DNA of 64,000 nt, from NCBI GenBank assembly GCA_021821465.1, contig JAKACM010000003.1, forward strand, positions 1 to 64,000, read 5' to 3'. The first letter of the stretch is position 1, and each line of letters opens with the position of its first letter. The notes beneath the pieces were generated by a model. It had not been told where the DNA came from. It made no database searches and saw only the letters and a list, made by a program, of their open reading frames with translations. The DNA comes from Bacillota bacterium (GTDB taxonomy: Bacteria; Bacillota; Sulfobacillia; Sulfobacillales; Sulfobacillaceae). This document shows positions 15,751 through 17,767 of the stretch, in pieces. The translations under genes and the position numbers were made by a program.

Positions 15751-16382
15751 CGATCAATCTCCTTCCCAGGCGGCATTGACTGAAATGCCCATGGAATTTT
15801 GGAAATATCTCTTTAACCTTAACGCATTCGGTGCCTCGAAGTAACCCACATGTCCTAAACCCGAATAAATTAACCCCAAAGTTAGAATATATTTCGACAC
15901 AAAAAGGAGCCATACTGCCAATCTTGCGCTATATCTTCATCGTGGCCTATGAAATACCGGAACGTTTGCCACGCGCACTATTTTCGTTATAATCCAAATT
16001 CTCGACATGATTCACCAAAATTGTGTTGCACTCTTAATCCAAGGACTGCGGGACAGTTAACCATAAAAAGAAGTCCACGAATGTTTCATCTTGATTGTCT
16101 CTGCAATCGCCGGCAATATCAGATCACGACCCATATAGCCGGATGTGCCCAACTAACCCTTTGCGACTCCCCACCATGCACACCTTCAATCAGAGTCTAT
16201 CCATCCAGGTTAAAATGAAGAAACTTCCCCATACGCTGCAATCGGAAATTTAGGTAGCCAAAGAAATTATCGTGAAATATAGCCCCCGACACCATTCCTT
16301 AAAGAGATCTATTCCAAGTCCCTAATATCACAAATATTTTTTCGTTATTCACTTGCATCGTTCTTCTTTTCATGATATTTTG
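15751..16382. other. non-coding region between GH15 and the metal transporter
   Basis: About 630 bases with frequent stops. The ORF at 15949-16218 has no ribosome binding site and a composition unlike the neighbours, so I leave it out. The right end leads into the Nur-box-like operator. I see no RNA gene. Confidence 0.4.
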
Positions 16383-16385
16383 TTG

Positions 16386-16402
16386 TTGCAAGATAATCGC
16401 AA
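16386..16402 (+). promoter_or_regulatory. Nur-box-like operator (TTGCAA-N5-TCGCAA)
   Basis: TTGCAAGATAATCGCAA lies 24 bases upstream of the transporter start, embedded in a wider inverted repeat TTGTTGC-N9-GCAATAA (16383-16405). The Streptomyces nickel regulator Nur recognises tTGCaa-N5-ttGCAA; this site differs at one position. The gene two ORFs downstream encodes a Fur-family protein. Binding is inferred. Confidence 0.6.
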
Positions 16403-16426
16403 TAATGAAAGGTGGTGTAAAAGTAC

Positions 16427-17314
16427 ATGCTTAATCTCTGGGATCCTCATGTCGGAATTATTTGGACTACGGCGCTTGTCACTGCATTCCTATTGGGCAT
16501 GGTTCACGGCATTACGCCGGATGAACACACTTGGCCCATAACTTTTAGCTACGCAATCGGCAGTTATTCGACGAAAAAAGGATTAATGGCCGGCCTGACT
16601 TTTTCCTTGGCCTTTACCCTCCAACGAGCCATTGCCAGTGAACTGGCTTATTTGGCCTTGGATAAATGGTTTACCTTGGGGAGCACGGTCGATTATGTCG
16701 TCTATCTCATTGTAGGGGTTGCGATGGTATGGGCGGGTCGTTATATACTGCAAGGGAAACACTGGCACTTGTCCTTGCGGCGTTCTCACAAAATGGGACC
16801 GAACCGCAGTGCAGGGGTCAATGCACCGAAAGCTTGGATGCCCTTAATGCACGGCTTTATCGCCGGATGGGGTTTCGGCGCCTTTGCCATAATTATCTAC
16901 ACCGTATTGGCGCCGACCATGCCTTCAGCATGGTGGGGGTGGGTGCCGGGTGCCTTATTCGGTCTAGGCACTACCGTTATGCAAGCGTTGGCAGGCGCTC
17001 TCTTTGGCTGGATTAGCCATCGTCTGGGGTTGCCCCCTGAAGCCACACAACAAGTGGCTTTGGTTACTGCGGGACGTACTCTGGCCTGGGGCGGCATCGC
17101 TTTTGTTGTGGGTGGTTTGATAGGCATCGTGTTGCCTCAAGTTGCTGCCGTTAGCATATCAACGGGGATTCACGTCCACAATTTAGACAGACTGGGCATT
17201 GCCTTTGTTCTGGTCGTGGTCTCGGTGATGGGTATTGGACTGACTACACTTATTCAGCAGACCCGTTACTGGACAAGACAGGTCAAATCAACTCACCAGT
17301 CACTGCAACATTAG
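16427..17314 (+). CDS. NicO/HoxN-like metal (nickel/cobalt) transporter, membrane protein
   Basis: The 295-residue protein has about six to seven hydrophobic segments. The first carries LLGMVHGITPDEHTW, resembling the His/Asp motif (HAxDADH type) that binds metal in nickel/cobalt transporters; here it reads H-x4-DEH. A second histidine-containing segment (LMHGFIAGWGFGAF) follows a cytosolic loop with several histidines. I infer Ni2+ or Co2+ transport: the motif, the Nur-box-like operator upstream, and the Fur-family gene six codons downstream agree, and the window holds a nickel-dependent urease. Import versus export is not decided by sequence. Start ATG at 16427 behind AAAGGTGG. Confidence 0.7.
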   Translation: MLNLWDPHVGIIWTTALVTAFLLGMVHGITPDEHTWPITFSYAIGSYSTKKGLMAGLTFSLAFTLQRAIASELAYLALDKWFTLGSTVDYVVYLIVGVAMVWAGRYILQGKHWHLSLRRSHKMGPNRSAGVNAPKAWMPLMHGFIAGWGFGAFAIIIYTVLAPTMPSAWWGWVPGALFGLGTTVMQALAGALFGWISHRLGLPPEATQQVALVTAGRTLAWGGIAFVVGGLIGIVLPQVAAVSISTGIHVHNLDRLGIAFVLVVVSVMGIGLTTLIQQTRYWTRQVKSTHQSLQH

Positions 17315-17329
17315 AAAGGGATGTATGAC

Positions 17330-17767
17330 ATGGAACGCACGTTGGAAGACCGTCTGAAAATCTTGTTGCGCGCCCAAGGATTACGGTTTACTCCCGACCG
17401 TCTGCGCATATTTCGCGCTCTGGCGGATAAACACAAGCCCATCTCCGTTCCCAGGCTCATTGCCATAGTGGAACAAGATGGGGTAAACCAAGCGACGGTT
17501 TACCGAACATTGGAGCAGTTTTTGGCTGTGGGGGTCGTGCAAACCGTGCTGCTCCATGACGGAGTGGTGGGTTATGAATTGGTTCCCCCTTTTTCCTCCC
17601 ACCACCATCACTTTATTTGCTTGGACTGCGGATCCGTGCAAGATCTCGCCGCAGAACGGGTGGACTCGGCTCTTGACAAGAGTCTGGAAGGCACAGGCCT
17701 TCGCGTCATCACTCATAAGGTTGATATTTATGGACAGTGTGAAAAATGCCATGCAGCTTCTTTATGA
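17330..17767 (+). CDS. Fur-family metalloregulator, possibly nickel-responsive (Nur-like)
   Basis: A 145-residue DNA-binding repressor. The N-terminal winged helix contains GLRFTPDRLRIFRAL and NQATVYRTLEQF; the dimerisation/metal part has HHHHFICLDCG (about 92-102) and a second CxxC (CEKC) at the end, the structural zinc pair. I place the start at ATG 17330, nine bases after AAAGGG, rather than at 17321, which touches the binding site. It follows the NicO-like transporter by 15 bases, so they form one operon. A Nur-like operator upstream suggests autoregulation. Fur, Zur or PerR roles remain possible; metal choice is inferred from context. Confidence 0.88.
   Translation: MERTLEDRLKILLRAQGLRFTPDRLRIFRALADKHKPISVPRLIAIVEQDGVNQATVYRTLEQFLAVGVVQTVLLHDGVVGYELVPPFSSHHHHFICLDCGSVQDLAAERVDSALDKSLEGTGLRVITHKVDIYGQCEKCHAASL

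Follow-up and report, generated by a model that had tools for sequence, protein, structure and literature searches.

The window analysed here, the whole stretch of 64,000 nucleotides, lies on contig C199 of a draft genome of 4.96 Mb and appears to carry a self-regulated metal-uptake operon of a Sulfobacillus-group acidophile, with zinc as the most likely metal; on sequence evidence, this reading is given a probability of about 0.6. Sulfobacillus benefaciens AMDSBA1 is among the nearest named relatives of the genome. In the proposed mechanism, a metal-loaded FUR-subfamily protein would bind a WTGCRA-N5-TYGCAW palindrome directly after the -10 element. Bound there, it would block transcription of its own operon and also of the gene of an APC-type amino-acid permease at another locus; under metal shortage, the repressor would come off the box, the membrane protein TR would be made and the ion imported. 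The regulator would act in the role of Zur and TR in place of ZnuABC, the ion being most probably zinc.

The operator and its regulon

Table 1. Features of the TR-FUR locus (positions in the window)
Feature	Position	Strand	Remarks
Operator TTGCAAGATAATCGCAA	16386-16402	.	core GCRA-N5-TYGC; kept before TR, APC, SQR and ZnuABC genes
TR, 295-aa polytopic membrane protein	16427-17314	+	DsbD_2 match; probable divalent-metal importer, from sequence
FUR-family regulator, 148 aa	17321-17767	+	PF01475, E 6.6e-21
Putative promoter	16353..16381	+	-35 TTGCAT (16353-16358), 17-nt spacer, -10 TATTTT (16376-16381); as read from the sequence
Possible extra half-site TTGTTG	16380..16385	+	directly 5' of the box; weak in the window; from promoter alignment

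With at most one mismatch, WTGCRA-N5-TYGCAW has a single match in the window, TTGCAAGATAATCGCAA, which is also the sole site in the 64 kb within one mismatch of the Nur-box consensus, tTGCaa-N5-ttGCAA (PMC3919588). The original prediction had described a 17-base box one base off this consensus upstream of the transporter, an operon ending with a Fur-family regulator, and urease elsewhere in the window, and these observations hold: the box has one mismatch and ends 24 nt upstream of the TR ATG, the last gene matches the FUR family (Table 1), and urease genes are found at 45.0-50.2 kb. TR and the FUR gene are likely to form one operon, because the gap between them is only 6 nt. A consensus promoter scan did not pick up the putative promoter of Table 1. 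The counterpart of the TTGTTG half-site is TTGYAA in the aligned TR, APC and SQR promoters of many relatives.

TR is present in 32 of the 42 genomes of the order, and a box with at most one mismatch is found 28-49 nt before the matched start in 31 of their 44 TR loci, compared with 11 of 599 other upstream regions, a background that is inflated by the many loci fetched for holding the box pattern; these counts treat related genomes, mostly MAGs, as independent. Twelve TR copies, mostly of a second TR subfamily, are devoid of any such box. One example of this subfamily is the second TR paralogue of the own genome (L071, G000:C49), about 55% identical, which has no box. In homologous promoters the box comes after a -10-like AT-rich element, where a repressor site would be expected. 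At the sequence level, the WTGCRA-N5-TYGCAW box is the operator of a small regulon, beyond what chance would give. The comparative data agree with the original prediction in joining the Nur-box-like operator, the probable metal transporter and the Fur regulator into one unit; its assignment of this unit to nickel is not supported.

Regulon members were sought by scanning the order with the exact pattern, followed by inspection of the surroundings of the matches. The gene of an APC amino-acid permease has the box upstream in 15 loci, and in G021 and G038-G040 it is divergent from TR, each gene with its own box. In the own genome, the search for the box that the original prediction had proposed showed a permease box at C179 (ATACAAATTAATTGCAT, 1 mismatch); the other exact matches of this genome fall inside ORFs and are probably due to chance. 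A PDB search with the permease gave no match. A precedent for an amino-acid transporter linked to zinc shortage comes from Acinetobacter, where the histidine transporter HutT is raised when zinc is lacking (PMC10903455); the permease described here may differ from it in cargo. The box also precedes the gene of a type III SQR-like FAD oxidoreductase in seven loci, and a protein search did not find this gene in the own genome. The boxed SQR-like loci include L176, L177, L181, L183, L198 and L202.

Zinc or manganese

Among 80 further TR loci from several phyla, roughly half have a FUR gene next to TR, and clustering of the neighbours revealed no TR partner as common as FUR. The window-type box is found before TR also in small genomes (e.g. 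L239, L247, L257, L264, L280 and L282). In eight loci (L218, L224, L225, L229, L248, L251, L273 and L281) the regulator adjoining TR is Zur-like, with the Y-x-x-C motif, and some of these loci have TGAGAATGATTATCA or AGAAAATGATTTTCT upstream. From record titles, the impression is that TR is confined to acidophiles; a literature query that paired Fur-family regulators with acid-mine-drainage Saccharibacteria found nothing.

Other promoters and neighbours were observed along with these. FUR-TR operons of Actinomycetes/Dormibacterota (L253, L235, L242, L249, L260, L271, L284 and L285), with a different Fur subfamily, carry TTGYGCAA-like units at 5-nt spacing, often in tandem, that is, as overlapping GCAA-N5-TTGC operators. 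Acidimicrobiaceae TR promoters (L259 and L265) show TTAGAA-N5-TTCTAA, which has the geometry of the window box and another sequence; in Dormibacterota-like loci (L227, L230, L233, L263 and L266) TR lies near a cluster with a putative ferric-reductase-like membrane protein.

The box also occurs before ZnuABC-type importers of three genomes: in the 1.1 Mb genome G042, TTGCAAATTTGTCGCAG precedes znuABC, which is divergent from a FUR of the regulator's group, and znuABC is preceded by CTGCAAATAAATCGCAT in G006 and by ATGTAACAAAATCGCAT in G036. The SBPs of G006, G024 and G036 have homologs, 49-54% identical, in the TR-less G014, G017/G018 and G032/G033; there the importers lie in operons with Y-T-L-C Zur-like regulators, and the promoters in G014, G032 and G033 contain TTGATA-N5-TATCAA, with the same 6-5-6 geometry as the window box. 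A ZnuA match is present in 6 of the 10 genomes that lack TR and in 3 of the 32 that have it (Fisher p 0.0025, related genomes being counted as independent), so that the two tend to exclude each other. Both TR and ZnuA are present in G001, G006 and G036. The complete genome G027 has the regulator, a boxed APC gene and a boxed SQR gene, and neither a TR nor a ZnuA match.

Zinc is our best guess because of the boxed ZnuABC, the linkage of TR and of the homologous importers to Y-x-x-C regulators, the tendency of TR and ZnuA to exclude each other, and the lack of a canonical Zur in the own genome. The system resembles Zur/ZnuABC as a presumably autoregulated uptake regulon, in the linkage of TR to Zur-type regulators in other phyla, and in a regulator that has no Fur H33 ligand and, in most members, a His at the position of E. 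coli Zur H77 (Gln in the window's own clade). It differs in that the regulator lacks the Y-x-x-C cysteine, the operator is TTGCAA-N5-TTGCAA and not one of the known Zur boxes, and TR is not an ABC transporter. Against zinc stand the Glu (E86) kept by the regulator, near which Zur has a Cys, the H-H-E-D ligand pattern of the SBPs, and the patterns of G027, G001, G006 and G036; a zinc regulon also does not account for an SQR-like oxidoreductase among its members.

The same operon and regulon might instead serve manganese, with the regulator in a Mur- or MntR-like role, which we consider unlikely. Manganese is suggested by the linked or co-regulated SBPs, whose H, H, E, D ligands we take to be more like those of the Mn-binding PsaA/MntC, and by the all His/carboxylate site kept in the regulator. 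The NCBIfam models do not separate the two metals, since AztC (Zn) and MntC (Mn) score about equally on the SBPs, both below cut-off, and the Mn model is slightly above the Zn model for the L331 SBP. However, Y-x-x-C regulators of the Zur type accompany the homologous SBP operons and, in the eight loci listed above, TR as well; zinc is thus preferred.

The transporter

TR belongs to a family of at least 562 relatives without a specific family model, and it was not found in the plasmid collection. Its only Pfam match is DsbD_2 (PF13386; 31.3 bits, cut-off 24.9), which is matched also by 20 of 43 TR relatives. The original prediction named the transporter NicO-like, and only a distant resemblance is left of this: Pfam gave no match to NicO (PF03824), the TR motif has the spacing H-x4-D-E-H instead of the NicO H-x4-D-H, and alignment with E. 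coli RcnA covers 18 residues around HGITPDE with 4.7% probability. Judged from its sequence, TR may at best be a remote cousin of NicO. It shares with the NicO/RcnA and DsbD/CcdA (LysE) superfamily the polytopic architecture, a first-helix motif resembling H-x4-D/E-H, and the weak RcnA and DsbD_2 matches, while it differs in the lack of a PF03824 match, of cysteines and of a significant PDB fold match, and in the motif spacing.

The conserved TR motif reads H-G-[IV]-T-P-D-E-H-T-W-P-I-T-F-S-Y. H27, D32, E33, H34 and H142 are invariant and E72 and H251 near-invariant; these seven residues are candidate metal ligands. The predicted structure is a helical bundle (mean pLDDT 85); a PDB sequence search with TR gave no match, and Foldseek gave none below E 0.001, CcdA being the best plausible fold match and not significant.

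The DsbD_2 and CcdA matches, together with the fact that RcnA is an exporter, would fit a TR acting as a DsbD/CcdA-type electron carrier or as a metal exporter and not as an importer, a reading to which we give little credence. TR has no cysteine at all, including the redox pair of DsbD/CcdA, and cysteines are needed for electron transfer; moreover, the genes switched by Fur-type boxes placed over the start region are usually those of uptake systems, and TR and ZnuABC tend toward mutual exclusion. Import, as in the zinc-uptake reading, is the direction that we infer.

The regulator and its metal site

The window regulator has a winged-helix FUR domain, a Cys4 site (C-x2-C...C-x2-C) and an HHxH motif. 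In an alignment of 28 sequences of the subfamily, E86, H94, H95, H97 and H132 are invariant, as are C100, C103 and C140, and C143 is near-invariant. Comparison with the structural residues of Nur, Zur and Fur, suggested in the original prediction, showed these differences: the positions of the Nur nickel-site histidines H70, H72 and H126, presumably in 3EYY numbering, are occupied by T/L/K in the window regulator and by P/L/Q or similar in its relatives, Y-E-L-V stands in place of the Zur Y-x-x-C, and the Fur H33 position is Pro here and in nearly all subfamily members.

In a tree of 70 proteins the regulator falls in a group of 44 (support 95/85), which joins window-type, Acidimicrobiaceae and Saccharibacteria-like FURs apart from the reference Nur, Zur, Fur, Mur and PerR proteins, several of which have long branches, that of Nur 3EYY being of unsure placement. 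The clustering with Zur or PerR that the original prediction had named as evidence against itself was not seen. By sequence, the regulator represents a Fur subfamily of its own. Five genes of the own genome belong to the Fur family, namely a classical Fur (L001), the PerR-like C118, the PerR-like L004 and L005, and the window gene; the Y-x-x-C motif of canonical Zur is in none of them. L004 and L005 (G000:C131 and G000:C16) are near-identical, and a Dps-like gene lies near L004.

Many boxed-TR genomes carry their FUR of the regulator's group at another locus, which could mean that the box is bound by another of the cell's Fur-family proteins and that the linked FUR gene is a passenger. We hold this very improbable, as TR is found linked to this FUR group time and again, in Sulfobacillales, in Acidimicrobiaceae and in small genomes; in G009 and G028 the FUR genes are preceded by a box of their own, and most box-carrying genomes have a member of the group. 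Binding of the box by the linked regulator would fit these data.

Similarity to Streptomyces Nur includes a Fur-family regulator, an operator of near-identical sequence and spacing, and its overlap with the promoter. However, the regulator here is without H70/H72/H126, has Pro at the H33 position and belongs to a separate subfamily, and Streptomyces Nur controls nikABCDE and sodF/sodN, whereas the targets here are TR, the APC permease and, in places, ZnuABC. Urease alpha is above the cut-off in 10 of 46 genomes and absent from most boxed-TR genomes; clear NiFe hydrogenases occur in few genomes, and many boxed-TR genomes have neither enzyme. Among these are genomes of 0.7-1.1 Mb, with no urease alpha or NiFe-hydrogenase match. 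Weak PF00374 matches, about 67 residues long, were assigned to relatives of complex I rather than to hydrogenases. No box was found before the urease genes of the window. The nickel-homeostasis unit of the original prediction, with a Nur-type regulator and TR as a nickel importer serving urease, is therefore highly improbable in spite of the operator one base from a Nur box, the urease in the window and the short motif resemblance to RcnA, since the Nur histidines are missing, the regulator does not group with Nur 3EYY, most boxed-TR genomes lack both urease and a clear NiFe hydrogenase, the urease genes are unboxed and ZnuABC-type importers are boxed.

In the wider picture, which we put forward tentatively, at somewhat less than even odds, a new Fur subfamily (E-L-x3-F-x2-H-H-[HD]-H, without H33) with a Nur-type operator would control new acid-adapted zinc importers of the TR family, which take the place of ZnuABC in acidophiles from several phyla, among them Saccharibacteria-like ones with reduced genomes. 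If true, a Nur-like box alone would not be proof of nickel, the TR family would gain a function, and it would be explained how extreme acidophiles take up zinc under conditions that should protonate histidine-based binding proteins.
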